Origin: Indolivaga capnocytophagoides DSM 22835
GTDB taxonomy: Bacteria; Bacteroidota; Bacteroidia; Bacteroidales; Dysgonomonadaceae
Direction: 5' to 3'
NCBI RefSeq assembly: GCF_000426485.1
Contig: NZ_KE384529.1
Span: 758,422 to 822,421 of the forward strand
Length of the DNA: 64,000 nt
How positions within the stretch are numbered: position 1 is the first letter of the stretch; each line of letters begins with the position of its first letter. The translations under genes were made by a program, and so were the position numbers. The notes below the pieces were generated by a model. The model searched no databases. It saw nothing but the letters and a program-made list of their open reading frames with translations, and had not been told where the DNA came from. This document shows positions 7,445 through 61,647 of the stretch, piece by piece.

Positions 7445-7538
7445 ATATAAGCAATAGAAAGCATTTAATGATATACTTTTAGTTTATAACAGACCTTGGT
7501 TGTTAAATTATTAAAGCAATAAATAGATCTGAAACCTT
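7445..7538 (-). repeat. Dispersed intergenic element, full-length copy 1
   Basis: On the minus strand this runs from a degenerate palindrome (GGTTTCAGATC) to the other terminal motif. On the plus strand it reads GCATTTAATGATATACTTTT, then GTTTATAACAGACC and a T/A-rich tail. It aligns along its whole length with the copies at 13154, 21378 and 58508. Confidence 0.75.
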
Positions 7539-7540
7539 AA

Positions 7541-7569
7541 ATAGCCGTTTATCCAAAGTAAGCGGCTAT
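7541..7569. other. GC hairpin followed by A-tract
   Basis: ATAGCCG pairs with CGGCTAT (7563-7569), and ten A residues follow on the plus strand. It lies between the phage cassette and the antiporter gene. It has no T-tract in a useful orientation, so it is not a standard terminator on either strand. Confidence 0.4.
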
Positions 7570-7660
7570 TAAAAAAAAAACACAATAAATAACAAATAGC
7601 TTTGAGACCTTATTTCTAGCTGTTTGCTATAATTAATTCGATTTTTCGTCTTTTTTTCGT

Positions 7661-7668
7661 TATATTTG
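7661..7668 (+). promoter_or_regulatory. -7 promoter box of antiporter gene
   Basis: TATATTTG matches the Bacteroidota -7 consensus TAnnTTTG, 53 bp upstream of the antiporter start. It separates transcription of the antiporter from the phage lysis cassette. Confidence 0.55.
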
Positions 7669-7721
7669 CCAAAAAGCGATTCTGCTTTAATCAAACTGTC
7701 AAAAAAAATAAAACAAATTAT

Positions 7722-9989
7722 ATGTCACACCTACCACCTTTAGTAAGTGATCTGGCTCTTATTCTCATAACCGCCGGAGTAGTAACCATCATATTCAAAT
7801 TACTCAAGCAACCGGTTGTACTGGGCTATATAGTTGCCGGATTTCTGATTAGTCCACACTTTGGACTGTTGCCTAATATCGTTGAAATGTCAAATATTTC
7901 GGCATGGGCTGAGATCGGGGTAATATTCCTCTTATTTGCATTAGGTCTCGAATTTAGCTTCAAAAAACTGATGGATGTAGGCGGTACAGCATCAATCGCA
8001 ACCCTGGTCAATATGGGTTCGATGATTGTTATCGGATATATCATCGGACAAATGATGAATTGGACTCAAATGGAAAGTGTATTCCTTGGGGGAATGCTGT
8101 CTATGTCTTCGACAACCATCATCATCAAAGCTTTTAACGACATGGGATTGCAAAAGAAAAAATTTGCAGGAATTGTCTTCGGTATGCTTATAGTAGAGGA
8201 TCTTGCAGCCATATTGATGATGGTACTGCTGTCAACTGTTGCCGCAAGCAATCATATAGAAGGAGCAGGATTGCTGGAAAGTGTTTTACGTTTGGGATTC
8301 TTTATGGTTATCTGGTTTGTTGTCGGGATATATCTGATCCCGAGTTTCCTGAAAAAGTTTAAAAAACACCTGAATGACGAAACAATGCTTATCGTGGCTG
8401 TTGGACTATGTCTGGGTATGGTGCTATTTGCTGATTCTGTTGGTTTTTCGGCTGCACTAGGTGCATTTATCATGGGTTCTATTCTAGCAGAAACAATTGA
8501 ATCGAAACATATCGAACATGTAATAGAATCAATCAAAAACCTGTTCGGAGCAGTATTCTTCGTTTCTGTAGGTATGATGATCGCCCCCGAAATTGTAGTA
8601 GAATATATCGTTCCCATTATATTATTAACAATAGTAGTGTTGGTCGGACGTGTTATTTTTGCCACTCTGGGAGTTGTAGCTTCGGGAGAAGGCCTAAAAG
8701 TATCATTACAGGCAGGGTTCAGCCTTGCTCAAATCGGTGAATTTTCATTTATCATCGCCACACTGGGGATGCAGCTAGGAGTGATTAGTGATTTCATATA
8801 CCCTATCATCGTAGCAGTGTCGGTTATTACTACATTTACAACCCCCTATTTTATCAAAATATCAGAACCGATATATCATGCCTTAGAAAAAGTTATTCCG
8901 GACAAATGGGGAAAACTGATTACCGGTTATGCCGAATCGAACAGAAAAACGGTTAATCATCAAACCGACTGGAATATTTTATTGAAAAACGTACTGTCTA
9001 CTGTAGCCATATACTTCACTTTGTCTTTAGCGGTCTACTTTTTTGCGAAAAATTTCATCATATCTTACGTAACAGACTATATTCCGGGTATTTGGGGTGC
9101 TATCAGTGCGGCTCTGATAACATTATTACTAATGGCTCCATTCATGCGTTCGATTATGCGACGTAAAAGCAGGTCTGCCGAAGCTAAAAAACTTTGGAAA
9201 GACAGCAATTTCAACAAAGGTGCACTAATTGCATTAGATACACTTCGCATAGCATTGTGTGTTGTTCTAATACTAATGGTATTAATACCCTTATTTCCCA
9301 GAGCAACAGGCATTTTATTATTAGCTTCGGGAGTTATAGCAACAGCTATTATATTTACAAACGGGTTCAAAACTCAATCGAAAAAGATGGAAAACCAGTT
9401 TTTCCGTAATCTGAACGATAAAGAAATTGCAGAAGAGAGCCAAAAAGCTGTCGCTAAAAATGCAAAATCTAAGCTGTTGAGTAAAAATATACATATCGAA
9501 AAAATTAGCGTACCTCAAAATTCACCGAGAGTAGGTAAAACACTGTCCGAACTCAACTTTAAACAATCGACCGGTGTAGATATCGTAAGTATTATCAGAG
9601 GGGATGAAAGAATCAATATTCCGGATGGCAACATCAGGCTTTACCCTTTCGACAAATTGGTAGTGGCAGGTACGGACGAAGAACTTCAAAAGCTAATTAC
9701 AGCTCTAGATGAAAAACAGAAAGAATACGACAATCAAGAACATGTAAATATTGCACAGCAAATAGTTGTTTCTCAATACGAATTAGATGAAAATTCGCCT
9801 CTCATCGGAATCTTAATTAAGAACTCGGGAATCAAAGACAAAACCGACTGCATGATTATCAGTATTGACAGAGAAGGAGAAGCAATGGCAAGCTTCGGAG
9901 CCGACACTGTATTACAAATCGGAGACGTTCTTTGGCTTGCAGGAGAGAAAGAGAAACTAGAAAAGTTTGAGGAAAACATATCTAAATAA
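7722..9989 (+). CDS. CPA2-family cation:proton antiporter (KefB-like) with TrkA-C domains
   Basis: A 755-residue inner-membrane antiporter of the monovalent cation:proton antiporter-2 family, exchanging K+ or Na+ for H+. Residues about 8-390 are the Na+/H+ exchanger domain with 11-13 membrane spans (LLFALGLEFSF, MLSMSSTTIIIKA, IVEDLAAILMMVLL, AALGAFIMGSILA). Residues 415-545 add a second hydrophobic block of about four spans. The soluble C-terminus has two TrkA-C-like ligand-sensing domains (about 588-660 and 680-755), without the NAD-binding TrkA-N domain found in classic KefB/KefC. It stands alone with its own promoter and ends before a gap of 150 bp. The exact transported ion cannot be read from the sequence. 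Confidence 0.92.
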   Translation: MSHLPPLVSDLALILITAGVVTIIFKLLKQPVVLGYIVAGFLISPHFGLLPNIVEMSNISAWAEIGVIFLLFALGLEFSFKKLMDVGGTASIATLVNMGSMIVIGYIIGQMMNWTQMESVFLGGMLSMSSTTIIIKAFNDMGLQKKKFAGIVFGMLIVEDLAAILMMVLLSTVAASNHIEGAGLLESVLRLGFFMVIWFVVGIYLIPSFLKKFKKHLNDETMLIVAVGLCLGMVLFADSVGFSAALGAFIMGSILAETIESKHIEHVIESIKNLFGAVFFVSVGMMIAPEIVVEYIVPIILLTIVVLVGRVIFATLGVVASGEGLKVSLQAGFSLAQIGEFSFIIATLGMQLGVISDFIYPIIVAVSVITTFTTPYFIKISEPIYHALEKVIPDKWGKLITGYAESNRKTVNHQTDWNILLKNVLSTVAIYFTLSLAVYFFAKNFIISYVTDYIPGIWGAISAALITLLLMAPFMRSIMRRKSRSAEAKKLWKDSNFNKGALIALDTLRIALCVVLILMVLIPLFPRATGILLLASGVIATAIIFTNGFKTQSKKMENQFFRNLNDKEIAEESQKAVAKNAKSKLLSKNIHIEKISVPQNSPRVGKTLSELNFKQSTGVDIVSIIRGDERINIPDGNIRLYPFDKLVVAGTDEELQKLITALDEKQKEYDNQEHVNIAQQIVVSQYELDENSPLIGILIKNSGIKDKTDCMIISIDREGEAMASFGADTVLQIGDVLWLAGEKEKLEKFEENISK

Positions 9990-10110
9990 TAATCAAATAA
10001 TTGCCATTATACATTTTATTTTTCCGAGAAAAAAGATTTTTCATAAAATATTATTTTACTAATCACGACTTCATTAATAGAAAGGCATAAATTTTGCTAA
10101 TAAAAAAAGA

Positions 10111-10126
10111 AAGGTTCAAAGACCTT
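10111..10126 (+). repeat. Intergenic palindrome copy (degenerate)
   Basis: AAGGTTCAAAGACCTT is a 16-bp near-palindrome ending 13 bp before the start codon at 10140. It is a variant of the GGTCTnAGACC family. Confidence 0.6.
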
Positions 10127-10139
10127 AATACAACAAATA

Positions 10140-10529
10140 ATGAAAAAAAAGAAGTCTATCGGTAAATGTATATTAAAGGGTGTAGCATTTGTAGCTATAG
10201 CTCTCGTTGTAATAGCTGTTGTCATGCTATTGTGGAATGCCATTATACCCCAAGTTATAGGCTGGTCGTCAATCACATATTGTCAGGCAGCCGGGATATT
10301 TATTCTGGCACGTCTCCTTTTCGGAAAATTTGGACGTCCGGGGGACTGCCGCAAATGCTGCAGTAAAGAAAAAGAACATAAGCAAGGACAAATTCAGGAA
10401 AAACTACAGCATATGTCACCCGAAGAAAGGCGCGAATATATACGCAGCCAAATGTCCAGACATAAGAAATATTGGTGTAACGATATTGAATGTGAAGACT
10501 TAGAAGATGGAGCAGATATTACAAAATAA
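10140..10529 (+). CDS. Cys-rich small membrane protein upstream of sigma factor
   Basis: A 129-residue protein with a basic N-terminus and two hydrophobic segments (about 10-32 and 42-60). A cytoplasmic tail follows, with a Cys cluster (DCRKCCSKEKEHK, about 77-89), a Glu/Arg-rich helix containing MSPEERREYIRSQM, and a final CNDIECEDLED. The closely placed Cys and His residues could bind a metal. The gene overlaps the ECF sigma gene by 23 bp, so translation is probably coupled and the protein may tether or regulate the sigma factor, though it lacks a recognisable anti-sigma domain. A palindromic repeat lies 13-29 bp upstream. Family not recognised. Confidence 0.82.
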   Translation: MKKKKSIGKCILKGVAFVAIALVVIAVVMLLWNAIIPQVIGWSSITYCQAAGIFILARLLFGKFGRPGDCRKCCSKEKEHKQGQIQEKLQHMSPEERREYIRSQMSRHKKYWCNDIECEDLEDGADITK

Positions 10530-11094
10530 TATGAGTGCAGGTTTACCCGAATCACTCAATGTATCGGAAGTCTTTACTAAATATCAGGCACAACTAAGGG
10601 GTTTTATCTCAAAGCGGGTAGTATCGAAAGAAGACAGTGAAGATATATTGCAGAATGTATTTTATCAACTGTCGAAAGTAGATCCTCTGGTCAATCCTAT
10701 TAACCAGATTTCGGGTTGGTTATACGCCGTAACCCGTAATCAGATTGCAGAATGGGGCAGAAGGCAAAAAAACGAAGAAATGCCAACCTATTCCAAGAAT
10801 GAAGAGAATGACTTTCTGACAGAAGTGACAGAAGTACTTTTGGCTGACAATGCTTCTCCCGAAACATCTTATCTCCGTTCTATGGTGTGGACAGAACTAG
10901 ACACTGCTCTGGAAGAATTACCTCCCCTGCAGCGAGAGATATTCGAATTAACCGAATTACAAGGTTTTTCTTTTAAGGAAATTTCGGAATCAACAGGTAT
11001 TCCTATAAATACCTTATTGTCGAGAAAACGATATGCAGTGCTGTATCTGAGAGATAAATTGAAAAACCTATACGAAGATTTGTTAGGTGAGTAA
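10507..11094 (+). CDS. ECF-type RNA polymerase sigma factor
   Basis: A 195-residue sigma-70 family factor that directs RNA polymerase to a specific promoter set. Region 2 is at about 20-85 (RGFISKRVVSKEDSEDILQN, then ISGWLYAVTRNQIAEWGRR). Region 4 is at about 135-185 (ALEELPPLQREIFELTE, then GFSFKEISESTGIPINTLLSRKRYAVLYLR, a helix-turn-helix). There is no region 3, as expected for ECF factors. The start at 10507 overlaps the upstream membrane-protein gene; an ATG at 10531 directly after that gene's stop is an equal alternative. No separate anti-sigma gene follows; a bidirectional terminator does. Target genes unknown. Confidence 0.92.
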   Translation: MEQILQNNMSAGLPESLNVSEVFTKYQAQLRGFISKRVVSKEDSEDILQNVFYQLSKVDPLVNPINQISGWLYAVTRNQIAEWGRRQKNEEMPTYSKNEENDFLTEVTEVLLADNASPETSYLRSMVWTELDTALEELPPLQREIFELTELQGFSFKEISESTGIPINTLLSRKRYAVLYLRDKLKNLYEDLLGE

Positions 11095-11135
11095 GATATC
11101 TGAGTTTAGTATCATAATATAGTAATTTTCAATAG

Positions 11136-11165
11136 AAAAAGCCCGGCAGTTTTACCGGGCTTTTT
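11136..11165. terminator. Bidirectional rho-independent terminator
   Basis: AAAAAGCCCGG pairs with CCGGGCTTTTT (11155-11165) around an 8-base loop. A-runs and T-runs on both sides let it end the plus-strand sigma gene and the minus-strand phosphatase gene, which converge here. Confidence 0.9.
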
Positions 11166-11188
11166 CTATTTTTATATGGATTAGATCA

Positions 11189-12829: not shown

Positions 12830-12858
12830 AACTTTTTCGAATTATATATGAAGTAAGT

Positions 12859-12873
12859 AAGGTCTCAGACCTT
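12859..12873 (-). repeat. Intergenic palindrome copy (exact)
   Basis: Contains GGTCTCAGACC with flanking AA/TT, 32 bp before the pafA start. On the gene strand it reads GGTCTGAGACC. Confidence 0.8.
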
Positions 12874-13096
12874 TTTGTTATTATTAAAAATCAAAGCTTC
12901 AGACTTTAAAATTACAGAAAAATGCAAAAAGGGCATCATCTTTGCTAATGAAAAAATAATGAATATCCGGTGAATAATCTGACATACAAAATGGCTTAAG
13001 CGGATCTTAATAATCACAAGGGAGTAACAGAAAGTATTGAACAATGTATTTCAGAGTAATAACTATCTGTTGATGTTATGATTGCAAAGTCAGTAA
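12874..13096. other. Intergenic stretch between pafA and MFS gene
   Basis: No gene, RNA or terminator was recognised. The stretch is AT-rich; both ends carry palindromic repeats, and the promoter and leader of the MFS gene follow. Confidence 0.5.
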
Positions 13097-13111
13097 AAGG
13101 TCTGAGACCTT
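13097..13111 (+). repeat. Intergenic palindrome copy (exact)
   Basis: AAGGTCTGAGACCTT, a perfect 15-bp palindrome around one central base, placed 23 bp upstream of the TATCTTTG promoter box of the MFS gene. Confidence 0.8.
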
Positions 13112-13133
13112 ATTTTCTTCGGATAAAAAGCAG

Positions 13134-13141: not shown

Positions 13142-13153
13142 TATCCCTTTTTT

Positions 13154-13246
13154 AAGGTCACAAACCTATTTATCCTTTGGCAAGTATAACAACCAGAACC
13201 TGTTATAGCTTGAATATATATATCATTAAATACTTTCATTTACTTA
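13154..13246 (+). repeat. Dispersed intergenic element, full-length copy 2
   Basis: Starts with AAGGTCACAAACCTATTTAT, continues through AACAACCAGAACCTGTTATA and ends with TATCATTAAATACTTTCATT. It ends four bases before the MFS start codon and fills the leader. Confidence 0.8.
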
Positions 13247-19342: not shown

Positions 19343-19915
19343 TTATAAAGACTTCAACCGAAGACTTTTTCTACATAAATAAGCCCATAGAATACCGCTT
19401 ATAGCTCCGGATAAATGACCTTCCCATGAAACTTGTTCGTCCTGAGGAAACACCCCCCAGACCAAACCAGAATACATAAAAGCGACTAACACCGATAACA
19501 ATATAAGTTTTACGTTTTGACTCATTATACCTCCAAAAACCAAAAATGAAGCCAAAGCATAAATAATTCCACTAGCTCCGATATGCCAAGCCGGACGTCC
19601 TATAATCCATGTAAGAATTCCGGTAGTAACCCACAAAAGGATCAAATACATTATGGCATTGCGTTTATAGAATGTCAATAACATTGTACACAAGACAAAA
19701 AATGGCAGCGTATTAGCCATTAAGTGCTCCCAATTACCATGAATAAAAGGAGCCGTAAGAATACCAATCAAACCCGCCTGCATACGAGGAAGAATACCCC
19801 AATTACTGAGATCGAGTCCAAGATACTGAACACCTTCTACAGTCCAGAATATCAGGACGAAAACAAAGGAGTACTTCAAAGCTTGTAACAGGCTATTTTT
19901 CTTATAACGATCCAT
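19343..19915 (-). CDS. Rhomboid-family intramembrane serine protease
   Basis: A 190-residue integral membrane protease. The catalytic pair is visible: Ser115 in WHIGASGIIYALA (GxSG motif) and His167 in EGHLSGAISG. The loop 1 pattern HGNWEHLMANTLPFF, with its oxyanion-site His and Asn, is also present. Six spans are predicted, the compact bacterial form without extra domains. Rhomboids cut membrane-anchored substrates within the lipid bilayer; substrate unknown here. The gene lies in a minus-strand series after cobS and cobC, with one palindromic repeat 22-35 bp before the start. Confidence 0.93.
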   Translation of the reverse strand: MDRYKKNSLLQALKYSFVFVLIFWTVEGVQYLGLDLSNWGILPRMQAGLIGILTAPFIHGNWEHLMANTLPFFVLCTMLLTFYKRNAIMYLILLWVTTGILTWIIGRPAWHIGASGIIYALASFLVFGGIMSQNVKLILLSVLVAFMYSGLVWGVFPQDEQVSWEGHLSGAISGILWAYLCRKSLRLKSL

Positions 19916-19936: not shown

Positions 19937-19950
19937 AAGGTCTCAGACCT
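19937..19950 (-). repeat. Intergenic palindrome copy (exact)
   Basis: AAGGTCTCAGACCT between the cobC stop and the rhomboid start, 24 bp before the latter (measured from the core at 19939). Confidence 0.8.
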
Positions 19951-21377: not shown

Positions 21378-21469
21378 AAAATCACAGACCTATTTATTAC
21401 TTTAATAATTAAACAACCAAAGTCTGTTATAAACTAAAAATATATCATTAAATACTTTCATTTACTTAA
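21378..21469 (+). repeat. Dispersed intergenic element, full-length copy 3
   Basis: Begins AAATCACAGACCTATTTATT, continues AACAACCAAAGTCTGTTATA and ends TATCATTAAATACTTTCATT. It is nearly collinear with the copies at 13154 (plus) and 7445 (minus). It lies between the divergent cobS and lipoprotein genes. Confidence 0.85.
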
Positions 21470-27654: not shown

Positions 27655-27739
27655 TGGTAATAAGTAATAGATAAAATTTCATGAAACATTTGCAGAACAT
27701 AATTGGCTTTGAATTTTTGCGTTTTCAAAGCATCCTAAA

Positions 27740-27755
27740 AAGGTCTTAGACCCTT
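27740..27755 (-). repeat. Intergenic palindrome copy (exact core)
   Basis: AAGGTCTTAGACCCTT-type copy (core GGTCTTAGACC at 27742-27752) in the leader of the kinase gene, downstream of its promoter. Confidence 0.75.
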
Positions 27756-28162: not shown

Positions 28163-28223
28163 ATCAATCATATTTGATCAAAACATTGTTTTTTATCTAA
28201 AAAATAATAATCTTTGTCATCAG

Positions 28224-28404
28224 TTATGGTGGTGAATTTATACATCTATAAATTTACTGAAAAGGGAATCAGGTGAAAATCCTGAACAGACCCGCTGCTG
28301 TAATCTCTAATGAAAGTCTGGAACACTACTTAATTCCACTGTTTATCAAAACATGAAACGGGAAGGATGTTCTAAGATAGAGAAAGTCAGAAGACCTGCC
28401 ATAG
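28224..28404 (+). ncRNA. Cobalamin riboswitch (orphan)
   Basis: The cobalamin aptamer is clear. TATGG (28225-28229) and CCATA (28399-28403) close the outer stem. The core reads GGGAATCAGGTGAAAATCC and ACAGACCCGCTGCTGTAAT, and the B12 box is AGTCAGAAGACCTGCC (28385-28400). A possible expression platform is CTTTCGGGAA (28420-28429) with TTCCCGAAG (28529-28537). Such riboswitches normally sit just before a B12 transporter or synthesis gene. Here no gene follows until 29063, and a terminator at 28697 intervenes. Confidence 0.9.
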
Positions 28405-28613
28405 ATACAATGTTCGATGCTTTCGGGAAATAAAGCTGATGACGCCAAAACTATAGATAAGCAAATACTACCAGTTTGTAAAATTGAGACAATAATGTCT
28501 TCAATAATCTGTTTTCGCATCTACCCTATTCCCGAAGTTTAATTATTAAGCTGTTTTCGAGATAAGCTTACATATAACAAATACAACCTGTTATATCTTA
28601 TTAAGACTAAAAA

Positions 28614-36376: not shown

Positions 36377-36483
36377 TAGGTCTAAGACCTTTTTTAATTA
36401 ATATTTATTCTCCACACTCCCTTTTTCAACGTCTTATGGATATTAAGGTCTATTACAGCACTAAATACTTTCTATAACTTAAA
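36377..36483 (+). repeat. Dispersed element copy with altered middle
   Basis: Exact palindrome GGTCTAAGACC (36379-36389) at one end and CACTAAATACTTTCTATAAC near the other, flanking an unrelated centre. It fills the gap between the 226-residue and 760-residue genes. Confidence 0.65.
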
Positions 36484-40747: not shown

Positions 40748-41353
40748 TTAAAAAACATATGCCAGACTAACGGTGCAACCTCTGTCTCTAAGTGAAATTT
40801 CTCGATCACCCAACAATAAGTGATTCTCGGAAAAGCTCAAATTATAGTCGGCATCAAGTCTCAGATAGGGTAATAAATAAACGCCGGCTCCGAAAACAAC
40901 ACCGTTTCGAAACTTATCCGAGCCTTTACGGTACTTGAGGGATTCAGAACTTTCATTATCCTTTATTTCTCCCGAAAACACATAAGATGAATATACTCCG
41001 GCCTTAACCAACGGTTTAAACTTGAACTGATTCCATGTTTTCTGAAAAACAATTGGGAGTTCGATAAAATTCTCGGAAAAATAATAGGAAATTCCGGTGG
41101 TATTATCCAGGTTATGGCGTAACGAAAACTCCCGGTAACGATACATCAATCCTACATTTACGGACAAGTCTTCGGCAAACAAATTCGTTTCGTAATACAA
41201 TCCGACTTTACAACCGATCTTCTGACTAAGTCCCACGCCCTGATATTTTATAGACGAGCCATCGAAATTTAAACCTGCGAGGATACCAAATCTTTGAGCC
41301 TGACACACAATTCCACTAACAAACAAAAAAACAGAAAGAACAAAAATCTTCAT
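40748..41353 (-). CDS. Outer-membrane beta-barrel protein (PorT-like)
   Basis: A 201-residue protein with signal peptide (1-19) and eight or so amphipathic strands, beginning RFGILAGLNFDGSSIKYQG and ending with TVSLAYVF (aromatic C-terminus). The pattern is that of the small PorT/OMP_b-brl family. It overlaps the upstream gene by 4 bp (41350-41353). The role in the cluster is unknown. Confidence 0.8.
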   Translation of the reverse strand: MKIFVLSVFLFVSGIVCQAQRFGILAGLNFDGSSIKYQGVGLSQKIGCKVGLYYETNLFAEDLSVNVGLMYRYREFSLRHNLDNTTGISYYFSENFIELPIVFQKTWNQFKFKPLVKAGVYSSYVFSGEIKDNESSESLKYRKGSDKFRNGVVFGAGVYLLPYLRLDADYNLSFSENHLLLGDREISLRDRGCTVSLAYVF

Positions 41354-41757
41354 AAGTCAACTACCGGATATAAAGTCTTAATACTATGATACAAATTTCG
41401 GGTCTGGGCATACAAGTTAGATGGCATGATAGTAGTGAGGCTGTTTTTCCAAAGGGAGAAACCTTTGCATCTTACAGCACAACCAACAATAATCTCCGAT
41501 TCGGATTCTTGTATTATATCCAGATAAGGATTATTTGATTTCATTCTGTTTACATCTTTTAAAGCAGCAAAAAGAATTGCACTATCGCCTTTTAGATACT
41601 GAACTTTTAATACAGTATCAACTGAACTTGTTGAAAATAAATAAAATGCAGACCGCTCAAATGCGAACCAATAATTATCAATTTTATACAGATGGATAAA
41701 ACTGTTATTATCCTGTTCTCTCTGCCAAATTTGTTTTATATCACCCATAACCATCAT
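41350..41757 (-). CDS. Cytoplasmic protein of surface cluster, unknown
   Basis: A 135-residue protein without a signal peptide. ATGs at 41757, 41754 and 41748 are all in frame; the last would give the palindrome the same 17-bp spacing seen at other cluster genes. No family recognised. A 4-bp overlap couples it to the barrel gene that follows. Confidence 0.65.
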   Translation of the reverse strand: MMVMGDIKQIWQREQDNNSFIHLYKIDNYWFAFERSAFYLFSTSSVDTVLKVQYLKGDSAILFAALKDVNRMKSNNPYLDIIQESESEIIVGCAVRCKGFSLWKNSLTTIMPSNLYAQTRNLYHSIKTLYPVVDL

Positions 41758-41763: not shown

Positions 41764-41776
41764 AGGTCTCAGACCT
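41764..41776 (-). repeat. Intergenic palindrome copy (exact)
   Basis: Core GGTCTCAGACC at 41765-41775, 17 bp before the likely start at 41748. Confidence 0.8.
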
Positions 41777-43134: not shown

Positions 43135-45816
43135 CTATTTCTTATTTTTGTAATACAATTCTACTCTTTTAGAATAGTCGGTCTTCGATTCTCCAATTCT
43201 TTGAGCAGGCATATCAGCCATCGAACTTCTCAACAGAACCGAAGACGCCGAAGATGCAGCCGAACTGGTGTATATTTCAATACTTGCCGATCGTTTTATT
43301 TTATCGAATGTGACCCGTCCTACTTTATCGAATAGAGTACGATAATTATTAAAAGCCTGTGTTTGTTTATTCACAATAACTCGTGTTGCGGGTGAGCTTG
43401 AATTACTATAAACGACCTCTCCCGTATTATTATAAAAATTCTTTCTCAAGCTTGAATCGTTATAAGTATCAGCATATCGCTGCATTGTTCCACCTTTATA
43501 TGCAGTAAGCAATATCTTAATCGGAGTAGATGAACTTGTACTCCACCAAATGGCATATAAGTCAATATAAACATATCGAGGTAACACATCGTAATTGTTT
43601 GATGAGCAAAGATTCTTCACATCAATATAAAGGCTTTCCCCTGCATTCTGGTTGGTATTATCTCCACCCCAGACCAAAACACTTTTTCCTGCAGAATCAG
43701 TAATTTGTCCTCCATTACCTGCAGTAGCCGAAGTACCAGTGTTACCTGCTTCGCTAGCAGTAGATCCGTTAGCCAAACCTATTGTTCCACCATACAACCC
43801 ATACCCCAAAGGTCTCGAGTCAACCTTGGTCAGTCCTGTATTCATAAATTCAGTGGCTGTATCCAAATCCTGTCCTCCTGTTCCTGTCCAATCGTATTTG
43901 AATACAAGGAACTCAAATTCGGGAATGGTTATTATTATATGATCAAGCTGTGTTACTGTTATTGTTTTAGTATAATTCGGATCATTTGCATGAGCTATAA
44001 TTATAGAACCAGTACGCCTTTGTTCATCAGGTCCGGCCTCGGCTTTTATTCTCAATACTCCATCAACATTGGTTACGACCATCCACGAATCGGAAACACT
44101 TTTCACTACCCATTTCTGATCACCGCCTAATGCTTTCAGATCGGTAAAATCGGTTGTACCTTCCTGTCCTCCTATTTCCACCGAAGACGGAACTTCGAGA
44201 TGAAGGTTGCAGACTTTGATACTGTCGTATTCCATAGTATTAAGATTAGCAAACTTATAGTATGTATTACCATATGATGATCCGGCGGTAAAAGTCAGTG
44301 AAGCATTTCCTGCACCACTGCTTGCATTACAAGTTGCATTTGCCGTATTTCCTCCGGTCTGTAGCCAACGTGAAGTTTCAGGGGATACTTGTAACGATAC
44401 ATTTTTTGAAGGTGCAGCTTCCGACAAATAAAGCGTACGGGGAGTCAGGTATATAGAACCATCCTGCACAGGAAAAGGATACTGATTTACAGTTATCATC
44501 TTTGTAAGGTTCTTTACTTTCAACTTCAAAACTCCCGATCGGGGGGTTGTATAATCATCCGAAGCAGCTGTTATCTTTATCTGGTTAGATGACGTAAATG
44601 ATGCTGTCAACCACGAAGACTCCGATGTCAACGAACATTCGGAAGGTAAAGCATTTGTAGTGAATGTGAAATTCTTCTCTACACCGATTTTGGTTATCGT
44701 TTCCTGTATAGACAGAAAGGTTTGAGACAAATCCGACGTAATTGTATTTTCATTCCATGGCAATACATTCAGTGTACCCTTGATCAGCACAGCAGAAGCA
44801 TCAGTCTCACCTCCGGGTGAAACAATGGTAGCCGTTATATCATAAATTGTATTGCGGTTGATGAGGTAACCATTATCACTGTTGACAAGTATCTTATAAT
44901 AATTATTGTAATTTATTTGCCCGTTGAGCCTTTTATAAGGAACTCTTATCACCAAAGTTGTAATATCGGATTCGGACGAGTACGATCTTTTGAGATTCTC
45001 GTTCACATAAGCATGAGTAACGAACAAAGCCGATTCCGTACCGCTTCTCGACTCGGCTGCAATATACTTCTCCGCACCGTTAAAATAATTCAAGGTCGAT
45101 GGGCTCAACTCCTTTGACACCAGATACGATCTGTCTGCCTGATTGATCACCTTAAATACCATGGATGAAGTATCGGGTACGAGATAAATATCTTCTCCCC
45201 CGAACGTAAACTTCTTGGCAGTCAATGTCAATTTGATCTTCGCAACATTACGAACCAATGAAACCGTAACCTGCGAATCTTCCTTAAAATTATGACCGGA
45301 TACAGCACCATGCATCACCAGAGGTTTATCTGCATCGGGTTGAGAAATATTCTGTTCTATCTTTTGGGTAATTATTGTATCAAGTTGTGTTTCGGTTGTA
45401 ATATAAGATAGATCCGATGTATAATTGGCAACAATCTGTATATCTCTCGATTTGTTGAGGTCGGCAAGAATACCACCATCCAATACCGTGATGATCTGTT
45501 CGTTGAGCCAGTTACTCATATCGACCTCAGACGAAGCCGCAACCGCGGGAAGAATATCAATGTGTGTGGAGAACTCTTTCTCTCCGGTCTCCGAATCAAA
45601 TATAAACAGAGTCAAATCCTTTATAATAGATTCACTTAGGACTTCGGTATTCAGAGAAGACGCATCCTCCGCACTTATCGGCAGCTGCAAGGCAATCTGC
45701 ACCTTACCGTCTGACCTGGGAGCAGTCTCTGTAGTATCTTCTATTTCGGCCGAGCAGGCTGAAAACAGAAGAAGCACAGATATGAAACTTATTATAGAAA
45801 AATATTTATTAATCAC
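43135..45816 (-). CDS. Large fimbrial tip-like lipoprotein with three BACON-type domains
   Basis: An 893-residue lipoprotein (FSACS lipobox). It starts at GTG (45814-45816), with no in-frame ATG nearby. Residues about 30-350 are Mfa/FimB-like. Residues 360-620 hold three BACON-type repeats (ETITKIGVEKNFTFTTNALP; VSLQVSPETSRWLQ; SSVEIGGQEGTTDFTDL), each ending in a tITVxQ strand. Residues 620-893 form a unique end domain (GGQDLDTATEFMNTG, WGGDNTNQNAGESLY) with no recognised relative and a charged tail. It may be a fimbrial tip adhesin. An exact palindrome is 17 bp before the start. Confidence 0.8.
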   Translation of the reverse strand: MINKYFSIISFISVLLLFSACSAEIEDTTETAPRSDGKVQIALQLPISAEDASSLNTEVLSESIIKDLTLFIFDSETGEKEFSTHIDILPAVAASSEVDMSNWLNEQIITVLDGGILADLNKSRDIQIVANYTSDLSYITTETQLDTIITQKIEQNISQPDADKPLVMHGAVSGHNFKEDSQVTVSLVRNVAKIKLTLTAKKFTFGGEDIYLVPDTSSMVFKVINQADRSYLVSKELSPSTLNYFNGAEKYIAAESRSGTESALFVTHAYVNENLKRSYSSESDITTLVIRVPYKRLNGQINYNNYYKILVNSDNGYLINRNTIYDITATIVSPGGETDASAVLIKGTLNVLPWNENTITSDLSQTFLSIQETITKIGVEKNFTFTTNALPSECSLTSESSWLTASFTSSNQIKITAASDDYTTPRSGVLKLKVKNLTKMITVNQYPFPVQDGSIYLTPRTLYLSEAAPSKNVSLQVSPETSRWLQTGGNTANATCNASSGAGNASLTFTAGSSYGNTYYKFANLNTMEYDSIKVCNLHLEVPSSVEIGGQEGTTDFTDLKALGGDQKWVVKSVSDSWMVVTNVDGVLRIKAEAGPDEQRRTGSIIIAHANDPNYTKTITVTQLDHIIITIPEFEFLVFKYDWTGTGGQDLDTATEFMNTGLTKVDSRPLGYGLYGGTIGLANGSTASEAGNTGTSATAGNGGQITDSAGKSVLVWGGDNTNQNAGESLYIDVKNLCSSNNYDVLPRYVYIDLYAIWWSTSSSTPIKILLTAYKGGTMQRYADTYNDSSLRKNFYNNTGEVVYSNSSSPATRVIVNKQTQAFNNYRTLFDKVGRVTFDKIKRSASIEIYTSSAASSASSVLLRSSMADMPAQRIGESKTDYSKRVELYYKNKK

Positions 45817-45830: not shown

Positions 45831-45844
45831 AAGGTCTCAGACCG
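45831..45844 (-). repeat. Intergenic palindrome copy (exact)
   Basis: AAGGTCTCAGACCG, core 45833-45843, 17 bp before the GTG start of the 893-residue gene. Confidence 0.8.
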
Positions 45845-47059: not shown

Positions 47060-47073
47060 ATCCTAAATATTAT

Positions 47074-47120
47074 AAGGTCTCAAACCTATTTTTGATTTAC
47101 GAAGCGTAACAACAAGTTAT
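47074..47120 (+). repeat. Partial copy of dispersed element
   Basis: GGTCTCAAACC (47076-47086) is followed by TATTTTTGATTTACGAAGCG and TAACAACAAG, matching the first half of the copy at 13154. The second half is lost. Confidence 0.55.
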
Positions 47121-52811: not shown

Positions 52812-53819
52812 TTAAAGTTCAATGCCATTACCGTTTCCGGGACTTGAGTTCCCTCCCGATTCGATATTAGGCGACCACTCTTTTATGTTAGCCAAACGCA
52901 ATACCTGAACGTCATTACCATCAACCTCTACAATAAGAGTTTCATTCATGTGTAAGATCATCGGAATTGAGTTTTTGTCTGTAATCTCGGCATCGAGCGA
53001 ATACAGTATATTATTATCAGCCCCGATGAGGTCTATGGTAAGTATCATCGGTTCGTTCGAATTATCTTCATTTTGTGGCGACGGGAAATAATTATTGCGG
53101 AATCCAAAATCAAAATCTTTATATGGATTTTTATATAATGCTGCTTCCAGTTTCATCATATCCCCTGCATCAGACCGCTTAGAGCGAGTAGTGATACTGT
53201 CGGTTATTTGCGCCAGATTCTGAACAGTGCCAACTCCTCTGGCCAGGATTTTGACTTTCTTTATATTATCGAATGTAAGAGACTCCGATATCTTAGTCAG
53301 TCGTTTGAATACGACACAGATACTGCCCACATATTGTTTATCGAATTGTATTGTATCCCTTACTACAGGCCCCGGATAATGTATATAAGGAGCTGCTGTT
53401 TCGGAATATATACAGGGAGGTTCGGGATAATACCCGTCCGACATCTTTTTTAATGCAAATGCAGCTGTACTGAAAGATGATAAGTTGCTGAATTCGATGT
53501 TTTGCATATTGGTAAAGCAAAAAACAGAATGCTCTCCCGGATAAAGCCTGAAATTGAAGTTTCCTTCCTGACTTCGGGCATTTTCGGTAAACGGATAATT
53601 CGAATACTTTTCTTTTTCGATTTCTGTTTTGAAAACAAGAATGCTCAGGTCTTCTATTTTATATGAATCTGTCCTGATACTTTTATCTGCCTTAGGAACA
53701 TATACGACATAGTTTGTCTCATCCTCAAAGTAATCGTATGTGCAGGAGCTCATACCCGAAAACAAGCAGATAACGATGATCAAAAAACAAAGTCTCAAAA
53801 AATTATATTCTTGTATCAT
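52812..53819 (-). CDS. FimB/Mfa2-like anchor lipoprotein
   Basis: A 335-residue lipoprotein with lipobox SSCTY (Cys near residue 25). The ATG at 53819 (MIQEYNFLRL) is chosen; a further ATG at 53837 is also in frame. The sequence after the Cys (IEDLSILVFKTEIEK, then FRLYPGEHSVFCFTNM) and the ending LRLANIKEWSPNIESGG match the FimB/Mfa2 anchor type. Anchors fix the base of the fimbria and limit its length. It follows the major fimbrillin-like gene. Confidence 0.85.
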   Translation of the reverse strand: MIQEYNFLRLCFLIIVICLFSGMSSCTYDYFEDETNYVVYVPKADKSIRTDSYKIEDLSILVFKTEIEKEKYSNYPFTENARSQEGNFNFRLYPGEHSVFCFTNMQNIEFSNLSSFSTAAFALKKMSDGYYPEPPCIYSETAAPYIHYPGPVVRDTIQFDKQYVGSICVVFKRLTKISESLTFDNIKKVKILARGVGTVQNLAQITDSITTRSKRSDAGDMMKLEAALYKNPYKDFDFGFRNNYFPSPQNEDNSNEPMILTIDLIGADNNILYSLDAEITDKNSIPMILHMNETLIVEVDGNDVQVLRLANIKEWSPNIESGGNSSPGNGNGIEL

Positions 53820-53841
53820 ATGTTCTAATAAAAACATGAGT

Positions 53842-53855
53842 TAGGTCTCAGACCT
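53842..53855 (-). repeat. Intergenic palindrome copy (exact)
   Basis: Core GGTCTCAGACC at 53844-53854, 25 bp before the start at 53819. Confidence 0.8.
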
Positions 53856-53949
53856 ATTTTATATACCGGTTCGAAGTTGTAGTCTGACCCTTCCGGCAAT
53901 ACTTTCGTTCTGACGGAAAGCATTGCCGAATAACATAAGGCCAGTAACT

Positions 53950-54046
53950 AAGGTCTCAGACCTCTTCATTTATCAACTAAGCACGAAACGACAGGAGAGC
54001 ATCTCTCCGTAATGTCATTAAATACTTATTACTGTTATTTTACTAT
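53950..54046 (+). repeat. Dispersed element copy with altered middle
   Basis: Exact palindrome GGTCTCAGACC (53952-53962) at one end and GTCATTAAATACTTATTACT at the other, with an unrelated centre containing a hairpin (GGAGAGCATCTCTCC). It lies between fimbrillin-like and anchor genes. Confidence 0.7.
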
Positions 54047-55328: not shown

Positions 55329-55682
55329 TTTTAATTTTATTAATTATCTAATCTGTTCTGAACATTTTTTCACTCAGAAGAAAGGAAAGTAATCTGATCA
55401 TCCGAACCACCGGCCGCTACTGACAAATACTTATCCAACCAACACATTTATAACCATTTGCCTTTTATAAATTCTATCTCCAAACACTATTTTCAGAGCA
55501 TAAGAAGAACCCTCACCCGAAATAAGCTTTCAGGTAATATTAAATCTTTTTCTGATTGAAAAATATCACATTCAGGTTGTTTTCAACTCTACTCTTCCTA
55601 TCGGAAGCCTTTGTTTCTTTGAGAACAGTCAATTTTGGATATACATACTTTTCTCTGTTTTTGTTTGTAAAATTTTGCTTCA

Positions 55683-55696
55683 AGGTCTCAGACCTG
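55683..55696 (-). repeat. Intergenic palindrome copy (exact)
   Basis: Core GGTCTCAGACC at 55684-55694, 356 bp before the fimbrillin start, within the leader. Confidence 0.8.
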
Positions 55697-55877
55697 TTTA
55701 TAGACTTTCATCTGACTCTTAGAGATCAAATAGTATTCGAAAAAATCGTTGTACTAGTTGCGGGAACCAAAACCATGTAATTAGATATTAGGCCGATACA
55801 CATTTATTACTACATTATGCCCACTCGATTATCAAACACTTTACAACACAAGAGTTACATCTACTATTTATTTGTTA

Positions 55878-57732: not shown

Positions 57733-58494
57733 CTAATCTTTTCCAAAATCGAAGTATTGTAAAAATCGGACATTATTTCCAAATTCAAAATCAGATGGGA
57801 TAATTCCTGTATATGCTTTGAAGTTCTTGATAAAGTGAGACTGATCAAAGTAAGCATCATAACGTGTTTTATCGGTCTTGAGCAATTTCATTGTCTTTTT
57901 AAAACGAACAATGTTTGCATATTCTTTCACTCCGATGCCTATCAGTTCGTTCATACGACGTCTCATCTGCCTGTCACACATTCCGGATAAGGAAGATAAA
58001 TCTTTTACTGAAATAATTCCGTTTGTATTTTCGATAAGGTTAAATACAGAGAGTAACCTCTTATCTTCTGATTTATCATCGACCTTTTTCAGAAAAAGAT
58101 CATTCCAATAACCAACAAGAGTCTCAGGAGGTGACGTAAGAACAATGTCTGAATTGATACCCCAATCCCAAAGGTTAAAAGAAGTCCCCGTATTAAGCAA
58201 ATCAGCAATCCTCAGATTCAACAGCCCAAGAAGAGCGTATGGCTTAAACCTGATGCCTATCTGTCTGCATACCGATGAATGTACTGCTATACGGCTGTTC
58301 CATATACCTACAAGACGACAATTGGTTATACATCCATGATTACAGGTTATCACAAGATCAAAATAGCCATCGGGAAGAATATCAAACTGCTGCTGAACAA
58401 GTTCTTCCGAGCTGAAAAACCAATATGCACAGATATAGTTTTCCAACGCTTTGAGAGGGGCAAACTGAGTATATGTAATTAATGATGCATCCAT
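57733..58494 (-). CDS. AraC-family regulator (DUF6597-type N-domain)
   Basis: A 253-residue regulator. The N-terminal ENYICAYWFF and FDILPDGYFDLVI, then RQIGIRFKPYALLGLL are the DUF6597 domain found in one AraC group. The C-terminal helix-turn-helix segments include ISVKDLSSLSGMCDRQMRRRMNELIGIG and YFDQSHFIKNFKAYTGIIPSDF. It probably controls the VOC gene beside it. A degenerate repeat copy lies 17 bp before its start. Confidence 0.9.
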   Translation of the reverse strand: MDASLITYTQFAPLKALENYICAYWFFSSEELVQQQFDILPDGYFDLVITCNHGCITNCRLVGIWNSRIAVHSSVCRQIGIRFKPYALLGLLNLRIADLLNTGTSFNLWDWGINSDIVLTSPPETLVGYWNDLFLKKVDDKSEDKRLLSVFNLIENTNGIISVKDLSSLSGMCDRQMRRRMNELIGIGVKEYANIVRFKKTMKLLKTDKTRYDAYFDQSHFIKNFKAYTGIIPSDFEFGNNVRFLQYFDFGKD

Positions 58495-58507
58495 ATTTTA
58501 GAGCTAC

Positions 58508-58600
58508 TTAAGACATCAGATCTATTTATTACTTTGATAAATAAATCAACCAAAGCCTTTTATAAATTAAAAGTATATCACTAAAAAATTCTCGTCACTT
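58508..58600 (+). repeat. Dispersed intergenic element, full-length copy 4
   Basis: TAAGACATCAGATCTATTTA, then AATCAACCAAAGCC and TTTTATAAATTAAAAGTATA, ending TATATCACTAAA. It is the most diverged full-length copy but is collinear with that at 21378. Confidence 0.65.
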
Positions 58601-58656
58601 AAAAGTAATCTTTTAGTAATTCTCACGAAAATAATTTGCAGAAATAAAAATTTAAA

Positions 58657-58664
58657 TAACTTTG
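58657..58664 (+). promoter_or_regulatory. -7 promoter box of radical SAM gene
   Basis: TAACTTTG fits TAnnTTTG, 62 bp before the start at 58727. Confidence 0.5.
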
Positions 58665-58726
58665 TAATTCAAAGTTCTTTTTATAACATAATCAAAGAAT
58701 AAAATAACACTATAAATCAGACAGAT

Positions 58727-60133
58727 ATGAAAGTAAAAATGATTCTTCCGGCATTAACAGAAGCAGAAAGTCCATTCTGGCGTCCGATTAAATACTCTTT
58801 ATTTCCTCCACTAGGGTTGGCTACACTTGCCGCATATCTTTCTCCCGATGACGAAATAGATCTTCAGGATCAGCACATCGAAAAACTAAACTTGGATGAC
58901 GAACCCGATCTGGTAGTCATTCAGGTCTACATAACCAATGCATACAGAGCCTACCGCATCGCAGACCATTACAGAGACAAAGGAGCTTATGTGATTCTGG
59001 GAGGATTACACGTCACGGCTCTTCCGGATGAGGCCGCACTCCATGCCAACAGTATCTTTTTGGGCCCTGCCGAAGAATCATTTCCCCGATTTCTAAAAGA
59101 TTTCAGGAACAAAACACCACAAAAGATTTACCGTTCATCAATACGTACCTTACAAAACATGCCTGTCGTTAGACGGGATCTTATTAAACGCCACAAATAC
59201 CTGGTTCCTAATTCGATAGTTGTGACCCGAGGATGTCCTCATCACTGCGACTTTTGTTATAAAGATGCTTTTTACGAAGGAGGTAAATCTTTTTATACAC
59301 AATTGGTAGATGATGCTCTAGCCGAGATAGACCGCCTACCGGGCAGGCATTTATATTTTCTGGACGATCATCTGCTGGGCAATAAAAAATTCGCTTCTGA
59401 ATTGTTCGAAGGGATGCGGGGTATGAACCGTGTATTTCAAGGAGCGGCAACTATTGCGTCTATTCTCGATGGCAACCTGATAGAAAAGGCTGCCGAAGCA
59501 GGTCTCAGGAGTGTATTCGTGGGCTTTGAGACTTTTTCACCGGAAAATCTCAAAATGAGCAACAAAAAGCAAAATCTGGCAAGAGACTACTCCGAAGCTG
59601 TCAAACGCCTGCATTCATTAGGCATAATGATAAACGGCAGCTTTGTATTCGGACTCGACCACGACAATAAAGATGTATTCAAACGTACCGTGGATTGGGG
59701 GGTACAAAACGCAATTACTACTTCAACCTTCCACATACTGACCCCCTACCCCGGTACACGCCTGTTCAGCGATATGGAACAGGCACGGCGCATTACATCC
59801 CGCAACTGGGATCTGTACGATACCCGTCATGTGGTATACCGTACTACAAACCTTTCGACCCGAGAATTGGAAGAAGGATACAACTGGGCATACAACGAAT
59901 TTTATTCATGGTCGAATATATTCGAAGCATCATGGAAACACGATTTGATAAAGCACAAACTCAAACATCTGTTTTATACGGGAGGATGGAAAAAGTTCGA
60001 ACCTCTATGGAATTTTCTGATCAAAACAGGAGGACTTAATCATATGCTGCCTTTGCTGGAATCTATATTATCGAAAGTTAATCTGAATGAAAGGCGAGAA
60101 ATGACAGTTTCTCAACCGGCTATTATTCAATAA
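58727..60133 (+). CDS. B12-binding-domain radical SAM protein
   Basis: A 468-residue enzyme. Residues about 1-130 resemble a cobalamin-binding Rossmann domain (LFPPLGLATLAAYL, VVIQVYITN, VILGGLHVTALPDEA), though the His-containing cobalamin loop (DQHIEK) is not a perfect match to DxHxxG. The radical SAM cluster is Cys170-x3-Cys174-x2-Cys177 (RGCPHHCDFCY). GFETFSPENLKMSNK and HILTPYPGTRLF are typical of the B12-radical SAM group, which includes methyltransferases and ring-forming enzymes. Substrate unknown. It precedes an MFS transporter on the same strand; export of its product is possible. Confidence 0.9.
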   Translation: MKVKMILPALTEAESPFWRPIKYSLFPPLGLATLAAYLSPDDEIDLQDQHIEKLNLDDEPDLVVIQVYITNAYRAYRIADHYRDKGAYVILGGLHVTALPDEAALHANSIFLGPAEESFPRFLKDFRNKTPQKIYRSSIRTLQNMPVVRRDLIKRHKYLVPNSIVVTRGCPHHCDFCYKDAFYEGGKSFYTQLVDDALAEIDRLPGRHLYFLDDHLLGNKKFASELFEGMRGMNRVFQGAATIASILDGNLIEKAAEAGLRSVFVGFETFSPENLKMSNKKQNLARDYSEAVKRLHSLGIMINGSFVFGLDHDNKDVFKRTVDWGVQNAITTSTFHILTPYPGTRLFSDMEQARRITSRNWDLYDTRHVVYRTTNLSTRELEEGYNWAYNEFYSWSNIFEASWKHDLIKHKLKHLFYTGGWKKFEPLWNFLIKTGGLNHMLPLLESILSKVNLNERREMTVSQPAIIQ

Positions 60134-60299
60134 ACAAAAGATGATGATCCAGAGGTAATCCAAATCTGAAACTCTCTTAATTTTACTTAACAATATAAGT
60201 TTACTTAACCAAGGAAAACAAATAGGGAAAAGATAAAAAGTTGTAATTTTACACTTTATATCAAAGAAGATTGTTTTAAATAAGTTAAGAGAAACAGAA

Positions 60300-61508
60300 A
60301 TGATGACACAAAAAGGATCTCCGATGCCCAATAAAATAAGCAGGTCATTGGTCGGATATGTAATACTCACATTCTTTGGCTATACAATTATAGGATTACC
60401 TCTTGCAGTATTGCCATTCTTCATCAATAAAGTATTAGGATATAATACAATAATAGCAGGATTAGTAATAAGCCTGCAATACCTCACAACTTTTGCCATG
60501 AGGGGGTATTCAGGAAATATTACAGATAAGAAAGGCCCTAAACCGGCTGTTCTTATCAGTATGGGTAGCTTTTTATTGAGTGGTATTCTTCTCTGGATAG
60601 CTTACGAATGCAAAGGCATTCCTCACATCAGTTTGGCTATATTGGTTATAACACGCCTGATTACCGGATGCGGAGAAGGAATGATCGGTGCAAGCCCTAT
60701 CAACTGGGCAATGCTGGCACTAGGAGATCAACATACAGGTACAGCTATATCATTCAACGGAATAGCCAGTTACGGTGGATTGGCTATCGGAGCTCCTCTA
60801 GGTGTATATCTCGAAAAATTTATCGGAATAGAAGGTGTTGCCATCATCATTATGGCAATAGCAGTAACAGGTTATCTGGTTGCACACCGAAAAAAAGCAT
60901 ACCGGAACGAAATTATCGAAAACCGCCAGCCGTTTATGAAAGTACTAGCCAAAGTATCTCCTTACGGGATATGCCTTGCATTAGGCGGACTCGGATTCGG
61001 GACATTATCGACTTTCATCACGTTATATTACGATTATATGCACTGGACAAACGGGGCATTGTGCCTTACCGTATTTGGTGCTACATTTATACTCACCCGG
61101 GTTGTTTTCAGTAATGCCATAAAAACTTATGGCGGCATCAAAGTAAGTATAGCATCTTTTGCAGTCGAAGCCATCGGTTTGGCAATTCTGGCTTATGCAC
61201 CCAATGTATGGCTGGCATTGCTCGGTGCAGGTATCACCGGATGCGGTTTTGCTCTTGTATTTCCAGCTTTGGGAGTAGAAGCGGTCAATCTGGTCTCTGC
61301 ATCCAACAAAGGTTCGGCTTTAGCCGGTTATGGCTTGTTTATCGACATATCTCTAGGGATAACAGGCCCTTTGGTTGGTGCTGTCGGAGAGCATTGGGGC
61401 ATGGATAAAATATTCCCTTTCAGTATGTTCGTAGTAGTTATCGGACTTCTCCTCTCTATCTATCTGGGTAAAAAACGGGCTGTAACCATAAGCCCATCGG
61501 GTAATTGA
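60300..61508 (+). CDS. MFS transporter (YfcJ/YhhS-like)
   Basis: A 402-residue transporter with 12 spans. Loop 2-3 is MRGYSGNITDKKGPKPAVLISMGSF; SPINWAMLALGDQHTGTAISFNGIASYGGLAIGAPLG is typical of the arabinose-efflux-type YhhS/YfcJ group. It may start at 60300 or 60303. It follows the radical SAM gene after 166 bp and could export its product, but no direct evidence links them. Substrate unknown. Confidence 0.9.
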   Translation: MMTQKGSPMPNKISRSLVGYVILTFFGYTIIGLPLAVLPFFINKVLGYNTIIAGLVISLQYLTTFAMRGYSGNITDKKGPKPAVLISMGSFLLSGILLWIAYECKGIPHISLAILVITRLITGCGEGMIGASPINWAMLALGDQHTGTAISFNGIASYGGLAIGAPLGVYLEKFIGIEGVAIIIMAIAVTGYLVAHRKKAYRNEIIENRQPFMKVLAKVSPYGICLALGGLGFGTLSTFITLYYDYMHWTNGALCLTVFGATFILTRVVFSNAIKTYGGIKVSIASFAVEAIGLAILAYAPNVWLALLGAGITGCGFALVFPALGVEAVNLVSASNKGSALAGYGLFIDISLGITGPLVGAVGEHWGMDKIFPFSMFVVVIGLLLSIYLGKKRAVTISPSGN

Positions 61509-61600
61509 ATTATTAACACAACATAAAATACACAACACAGTACACAGTTTTTAAGGATAGATAAAATTTTCCAGATATTTTCGGAGAAATCTTTATTATA

Positions 61601-61647
61601 AAGTAACTGAAAGTATTTAATGACATAAAAAAGGTCTATGACCGTCT
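61601..61647 (-). repeat. Compact copy of dispersed element (middle missing)
   Basis: On the plus strand GTAACTGAAAGTATTTAATG is followed by ACATAAAAAAGGTCTATGAC. It is the reverse of the compact copy at 38792. It lies between convergent genes. Confidence 0.75.

Follow-up and report, generated by a model that had tools for sequence, protein, structure and literature searches.

Within a 64,000-nucleotide stretch of the genome of Indolivaga capnocytophagoides DSM 22835 (assembly GCF_000426485.1, contig NZ_KE384529.1, positions 758,422 to 822,421; hereafter the window, numbered from its first letter), the palindrome GGTCTnAGACC recurs between genes. We propose, with a probability of about 80%, that it forms the hairpin at the right end of a non-autonomous mobile element of ~92 bp that behaves as a miniature inverted-repeat transposable element (MITE) of the IS630/Tc1-mariner type. 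On this account, what looks like a genome-wide regulatory palindrome is largely the mark of a mobile element, and motif scans in Dysgonomonas and its relatives should not take it for a regulon.

The window contains 10 exact copies of the palindrome, as compared to a mean of 0.03 in 100 dinucleotide shuffles. An earlier note on this DNA, made from its letters, had placed all ten sites correctly and had rightly estimated the chance expectation as well below one. The genome-wide count that it had proposed as a check gave 320 exact sites in the source genome (G000; 4,377,988 bases in 38 contigs) and none for the pattern read backwards. Other genomes of the genus have 144, 291, 1 (in an assembly that is 62% complete), 45, and 146 exact sites, and those of other genera of the family 0-4 each. 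A genome from another family of the same order, G040, has 51, and the other 15 genomes of the order have 0 or 1. Open reading frames (ORFs) were predicted with a simple custom caller that uses ATG starts only, which makes the distances to starts approximate. In the window and 20 further stretches (462 kb of G000), 61 of the 62 exact sites were located outside called ORFs (2 of these at a stretch edge), in good agreement with the previous observation that no copy is inside a gene; the lone exception lies within a 206-codon ORF of low coding score, ~34-44 bases from its 5' end. The preference for G at the centre on the gene strand also held, with G found in 24 of 31 exact sites that are no more than 60 nt from a start.

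When the palindrome sites were aligned in gene orientation, many of them proved to have ~80 bases upstream in common, and a profile made from 15 copies delineated a dispersed element of ~92 bp. This element has the form TAAGTAACAGAAAGTATTTAAT...AATAAATAGGTCTGAGACCTTA with fixed ends, TAAGTA... on the left and ...TAAATAGGTCTnAGACCTTA on the right, and the consensus of 45 copies is TAAGTAACAGAAAGTATTTAATGATATATTTTnAAnTnATAACnnnCTnTTGnTGTTATACTTGCnAAAnCAATAAATAGGTCTGAGACCTTA. The palindrome is the hairpin of the right end (AGGTC-TGN-GACCT), with the stem AGGTC/GACCT and a three-base loop that is TGA in 29, TGT in 10, and TGC in 6 of 133 right ends. These counts, like those of adjoining stops and starts given below, come from 156 matches of at least 28 bits in stretches of G000, G002, G004, and G001, of which 133 were kept (140 in a looser set); dropped were those with the right end unreached or unrecognised or with no neighbour gene. 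From start to end, the element measures 92 bp in 86 cases and 89-93 bp in 143 (in 2.58 Mb of several genomes, with some loci counted twice). With a threshold of 28 bits, we identified 98 matches in 862 kb of G000 (95 with the first model), which by extrapolation suggests ~500 copies per genome; the reversed G000 sequence, searched with the first model at E 0.01, contained no matches. The midpoints of 72 out of 72 copies fall outside called genes. Short, non-coding, dispersed, and of fixed length (92-bp mode, 98 copies in 862 kb), the element resembles a MITE in these respects. Exact palindromes are found within an element match in 45 of 75 cases sampled in G000, in 28 of 34 in G002, and in 5 of 10 in the window (3 in near-full copies and 2 in right-end parts).

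The genomes G000, G001, G002, G004, and G005 each have at least 95-101 element matches. Fewer are present elsewhere (32 in G019, 11 in G023, 5 each in G010 and G017, 4 in G018, and 1 in G003), and the profile had no matches in the remaining 30 of the 41 genomes, G040 included. A 22-base right-end pattern is present in at least 89 contig stretches of the genome collection; among the matches listed (80), it comes from Dysgonomonas species and from metagenome-assembled genomes named Prevotella sp. or Bacteroidales bacterium. No exact matches to this pattern were detected in viral contigs, and blastn with one element copy gave no match in plasmid and phage collections. A related-locus search using one flanking protein found none.

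Insertion occurs at a specific target. The flanks of filled loci were joined and compared to empty sites, with each dinucleotide or nothing placed in between (17 fillers, ties checked). The 16 comparison rows represent nine loci, since L098 and L153 are the same place, as are L106 and the source, two rows set L098 against L153 (one filled site in both), and one locus was matched to the same target twice. TA was the unique best filler in six of the nine filled loci, with identities of 93%, 91%, 82%, 82%, 81%, and 76%, although at the 81% locus (G000 copy 500045) it was ahead by one point only. The element thus inserts at TA and duplicates it, the unit proper being AG...CT between the two TAs. 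Target duplication is a property of MITEs, and TA is the target of the IS630/Tc1-mariner group; IS630 transposases such as that of ISY100 are described as inserting at TA with its duplication (PMC2170065). A flank correlation test for target duplication was negative, but such a test is blind to a constant TA.

Another line of evidence for mobility is the presence or absence of the element at orthologous gaps, a MITE property that is evident here. G000 and G002 (D. alginatilytica) have 101 conserved adjacent gene pairs in common, with a median protein identity of 73%. The element is found in both gaps in 4 cases, only in G000 in 8, only in G002 in 13, and in neither, not even as a weak match, in 59; that leaves 17 pairs with weak matches. 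The conservation at orthologous sites that the earlier note had named as a check is therefore mostly wanting, with 4 shared positions as opposed to 21 one-sided ones, each a strong match versus none. Similarly, G002 and G001 (37 gene pairs, 79% identity) show 5 and 2 one-sided cases and no shared ones. In some cases, the two orthologous gaps are unequal by roughly the size of one element, for example, 125 vs 27 and 112 vs 18. Two G000 copies (C1:500046 and 500926) have no counterpart in the corresponding gap of G001, G002, and G004 and are most simply viewed as gains on the source lineage. The copies in the source genome are old: the median identity to the consensus is 0.78 (159 copies, all sources), and the best pair within G000 reaches 0.89. 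Pairs of 0.98 identity are present in G002 and may include segmental duplications.

In G040, several palindromes end a sister element of ~105 bp that has TAAGTA... and ...TAAATAGGTCTAAGACCTTA ends and a different interior. The right-end pattern was detected in 9 of 393 Bacteroidales genomes (7 genera, 6 families, the source included), with 0 in each for the backwards control, so this element class is patchily distributed over at least six Bacteroidales families. With up to one mismatch, the sister left end TAAGTANNNNTACAAAAGTTTTT occurs 817 times in G040, 223 in G093, 20 in G196, 7 in G107, 4 in G281, and 0 in G183, as opposed to 1 overall in the backwards control. The hairpin stem can be exchanged with compensation, as in the sister family of G107, which has AGCAC/GTGCT (L302, L312), and in 6 of the 67 fully paired Dysgonomonas hairpins, which have AGCTC/GAGCT, AGTTC/GAACT, or AGGCC/GGCCT. 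In right-end-like surroundings at L258 and L261 (G040) we noticed the hairpins GGCTCGAAGAGCC, GGTTCTTCGAACC, and GACTCTTCGAGTC, whose letters suggest further stem variants.

The sister elements provide the connection to IS630. A degenerate IS630-family transposase gene of G040 (DDE_3, E 3.8e-23) starts 156 bases after the start of TAAGTACTATTACAAAAGTTTTTCG, 25 bases that recur unchanged as the left end of a sister element; three further IS630 ends are similar to this left end. Behind the 3' end of a putative IS630 gene in G093 comes sequence like an inverted left end (20 of 30 bases the same as in the G040 IS630 end). IS630 remnants with the ends TAAGCACC... (G196) and TAAGTACTCA... (the congener G001) match the left end of the ~92-bp element in 16 and 17 of 27 positions, respectively; 1197 control TAAGTA sites have a mean of 8.35, with 14 reaching the G196 value and 11 that of G001. 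The G001 remnant was found only by protein query (E 2.2e-4, 30% identity). PF13358 had no match in G000, G001, G002, G004, or G005, so in these five Dysgonomonas genomes the parent is either lost or unsampled. A search of the 2.58 Mb for a long version with the element ends returned only scattered long-distance half-match pairs, the genes between which were not inspected individually. Judging from the other genomes, an IS630-family transposase would have acted on the element in trans.

Some further features were seen in G093. At a contig edge (L348:1-149, G093:C335), a short element directly borders the 3' portion of a transposase gene of the IS630 family, as if it had been inserted in that gene; insertions of RUP in transposase genes of insertion sequences have been reported (PMC2229807). 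A repeat of ~90-110 bp stands beside a sister element at L282:1254-1354 and has many matches in G093 and G196; a second one of this size (L282:1393-1502) has several matches in G093 and one partial match in G196 (both among the best 40 candidates per genome).

The most striking result is a bias of one end towards stop codons. The TAA of the right end is the stop codon of the neighbour gene in 29 of 60 cases, as opposed to 3 of 50 for the left end (p 5.7e-7), or 30 of 62 and 4 of 53, respectively, in the looser set. Read inward from the right end, the sequence consists of TAA, the hairpin, and a T-rich run (5.10 T in 8 positions vs 3.20 on the other strand), so the features of an intrinsic terminator, a hairpin and a T-rich run, are present, and a terminator function of this end would explain the bias. 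The base before the far (left) TA, readable in 22 of the 29 copies at stops and in 89 of the 104 others, is T in 17 of 22 and 39 of 89, respectively, an excess that is expected if a TAA stop was split by the insertion. As both ends begin with TAAG, a gene hit at its stop codon would keep a TAA. Somewhat less securely, the right end may act as a ready-made stop together with a candidate terminator, which would account for its adjoining stops far more often than the left end does. This makes the one-end bias a testable case of a mobile repeat supplying the 3' ends of genes.

A wider proposal, to which we give somewhat less than even chances, is that several Bacteroidales families harbour a class of short IS630-type elements in which the right end combines TAA, a hairpin with an exchangeable stem, and a T-rich run. 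Such elements might insert right-end-first at TAA stops and thereby equip the gene with both a new stop and a new terminator; genomes would then tolerate hundreds of copies, and the 3' ends of genes would be rewritten.

Several observations weigh against the palindrome being part of an IS630-type MITE. Terminal inverted repeats are limited to TAAG/CTTA (AG/CT if the TA is not counted), which is short for a MITE, and otherwise the two ends are unlike; with so little inverted sequence, and yet behaving as a TA-targeting MITE of IS630 type, the element is not a classical MITE. TA was tied with all other fillers or scored lower in three of the nine loci (77-78%, 74%, and 75% identity), and two comparisons by eye (G002 171264 vs G000 and G000 500926 vs G004) are without the TA. 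No IS630 transposase match and no mobiliser were found in the source genome. The IS630 copies in which these ends occur are either degenerate or truncated at a contig border, none was seen with a hairpin right end, and both G093 matches score under the family cut-off. The IS630 ends of G040 (8/27) and G093 (12/27) resemble the left end of the ~92-bp element no more closely than do 729 and 112, respectively, of the 1197 control sites. Against the terminator reading, hairpins at stops are no better kept than those elsewhere (13 of 29 vs 54 of 104, p 0.53), and starts within 35 nt are similarly frequent at right ends (41 of 73) and left ends (36 of 83, p 0.31). Finally, 30 of the 75 exact palindromes in G000 and 6 of the 34 in G002 are outside any profile match. 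The flanks of these 30 solo palindromes agree with the right end in 6.4 of 9 positions, as opposed to 4.0 at random intergenic places, so most of them look like remnants of the element.

Compatible with a mobile origin is the possibility that once-mobile copies near starts and stops are now kept for a function, as a leader hairpin or a candidate terminator. We regard this as unlikely, if a serious contender. The prevalence of the right end at stops and the T-rich run behind the hairpin are in line with it, and the palindrome persists at 9.2-10.9 of 12 positions (baseline 5.96) while the rest of the element decays. In addition, solo palindromes are commoner near starts than those in full copies (17 of 36 vs 12 of 49, p 0.038), and some of them may have been put to use. 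However, hairpins at stops are no better kept, the hairpin has no wobble bias, and few sites are common to different species.

Far less probable is an operator, or a nucleoid- or chromosome-organising site, of a widespread DNA-binding protein that evolved in place at many genes. Its palindromic form, its intergenic location, often 4-35 nt upstream of starts, and the gathering of solo palindromes near starts speak for it. In conflict with this idea, most palindromes (45 of 75 in G000, 28 of 34 in G002) are inside a conserved ~92-bp unit, and their positions are hardly common to congeners (4 both, 21 one-sided of 101 pairs, counting element matches with solos not separated). Furthermore, the imperfect forms AGGTC TGT GACCT (10) and AGGTC TGC GACCT (6) exist beside 29 cases of AGGTC TGA GACCT, and a sister family swaps the stem sequence while keeping the hairpin. 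With 92 bp kept between copies, positions hardly shared, and stems exchanged, the earlier suggestion of an operator for a widespread regulator is not supported.

A slightly poorer fit still is an element of the repetitive extragenic palindromic (REP)/RAYT type or another single-strand (HUH) element. Like the REPs with a GTAG or CGTC tag (PMC3733652), the ~92-bp element has a terminal hairpin on one side and compensated stems, is intergenic, and has an end that often serves as a stop codon, the provision of stops being described for GTAG REPs. It differs from them, as described there, in unit size (~92 bp vs 20-40 bp), in the tag, in target duplication, and, with respect to the GTAG group, in the transposase: the consensus AATAGGTC...GACCTTA has no GTAG or CGTC at the hairpin, TA is duplicated at insertion, and Y1_Tnp (PF01797) has 0 matches in G000. 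The former description as REP-like is accordingly apt if the term is taken loosely, for a scattered intergenic repeat that moves and ends in a hairpin, but not in the strict sense, given the ~92 bp, the TA duplication, and no Y1/RAYT match. The IS200/605, RAYT, and IS91-like readings were dropped because of the TA duplication, with no search aimed at IS91 being made.

A structured RNA leader or regulatory RNA at mRNA 5' ends is equally improbable, because, although many copies lie 10-30 nt before start codons and an internal loop is weakly complementary to the downstream tail (-4.39 vs permuted -3.77, sd 0.155 kcal/mol; 153 copies), this signal is only ~2 sd under nearest-neighbour permutation, RNAalifold of 45 copies gave 0 pairs, the hairpin has undergone G.U and A.C type changes in balanced numbers (34/34 in 159 copies, hand-summed; 33/32 in 133), and the orientation relative to genes is mixed. 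A covariation signal at the RNA level was rejected as dominated by subfamilies.

Cardinium belongs to the Bacteroidota and is hence a relative of the source organism. Its MITECca01 is described as an abundant MITE with 169 copies, mostly intergenic or in mobile elements; unlike the ~92-bp element, it is derived from IS982, and its parent insertion sequence is still present (PMC9769881). The pneumococcal RUP (107 bp, related to IS630-Spn1) is likewise a short intergenic repeat with many copies (108), with TA at both ends, target duplication, and a link to IS630 ends, but it is reported to have 9-bp terminal inverted repeats and well-conserved copies (PMC2229807). The element described here has an inverted part of TAAG/CTTA only, one hairpin end, and old copies (median 78% to consensus). 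ERIC, Correia-NEMIS, and CIR, likened by description, are similar in size class and in having TA termini, but the consensus fold of our element shows nothing like the long stem-loops of NEMIS RNA (PMC2229807). TA target duplication is also common to IS630/Tc1-mariner elements such as ISY100 (PMC2170065), and a degenerate Bacteroidales copy of this group has its left end in common with the sister elements. As described, insertion sequences of the ISY100 type are autonomous and carry a similar inverted repeat at either end (24 bp in ISY100; PMC2170065), whereas the element is non-coding with unequal ends. Judged from titles, no description of the element was found in the papers covered by the searches. 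Searches with the motif letters led to unrelated subjects, by titles among the matches listed; those for Dysgonomonas with intergenic repeats, palindromes, or IS630 insertion sequences had no match; and those for Dysgonomonas with MITEs had no title on transposable elements among the matches listed.

The ~92-bp unit was overlooked in the earlier note, including window copies that have no exact palindrome. On the forward strand, near-full copies are found at 7448..7539 (53.5 bits, model 2-94), with the palindrome decayed to GATCTGAAACC and the copy included in the consensus alignment; at 13023..13112 (60.2 bits, model 4-94), where the right end is the exact palindrome at 13099; and at 27661..27754 (32.1 bits), with the exact palindrome at 27742. 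Those on the reverse strand are at 13153..13246 (59.2 bits, model 2-94), with the right end GGTTTGTGACC; at 21382..21468 (49.8 bits), without an exact palindrome (GGTCTGTGA...); at 53949..54031 (30.3 bits, model 9-94), with the exact palindrome at 53952; and at 58511..58601 (38.8 bits), with a decayed palindrome. Right-end parts with exact palindromes at 12861 and 55684 occupy 12858..12884 (18.3 bits, model 68-94) and 55682..55707 (16.8 bits), both on the reverse strand, as is the right half of a copy at 47073..47117 (21.8 bits, model 49-94), which has GGTTTGAGACC. A partial forward-strand copy at 61601..61648 (16.3 bits, model 3-50) corresponds to the model's left part, with GGTCTATGACC shortly after it.

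Solo exact palindromes without a model match, all on the reverse strand and each upstream of a gene start, are located at 19939..19949 (E 0.01), 23 nt from 19343..19915(-); at 41765..41775, 7 nt from 41350..41757(-); at 45833..45843, 16 nt from the ORF 43135..45816(-), which begins with GTG; and at 53844..53854, 6 nt from 52812..53837(-). The exact palindrome at 36379..36389 (-) is either solo or part of a strongly decayed copy; it has no match to the final model, and only an earlier element model gave a weak full-length match (36378-36482, 17.9 bits). Among the close variants listed previously, 13156, 47076, and 61633 belong to the copies at 13153..13246, 47073..47117, and 61601..61648, respectively. 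Those at 10113 (actual position 10114), 28616, 38794, and 39801 do have 1-2 mismatches but are inside no element match, and 28073 and 39591 are not within two mismatches of the palindrome. With up to two mismatches, the window has 28 palindrome matches vs 14.05 expected, so part of that list may be due to chance.

Four element copies of D. alginatilytica (L158:3189-3316, L158:7427-7554, L187:2903-3030, and L201:4717-4844) are exactly 127 bp long and have a GTAGGGGCAGACC...CACCCCTAC hairpin nested at their centre. From its sequence, this looks like a GTAG-type REP that was inserted in the element and then spread along with it. An Rfam scan of the window at the gathering score shows that the element matches no known Rfam family; the single match is a cobalamin riboswitch (RF00174, 98.5 bits) at 28210-28417 on the forward strand.

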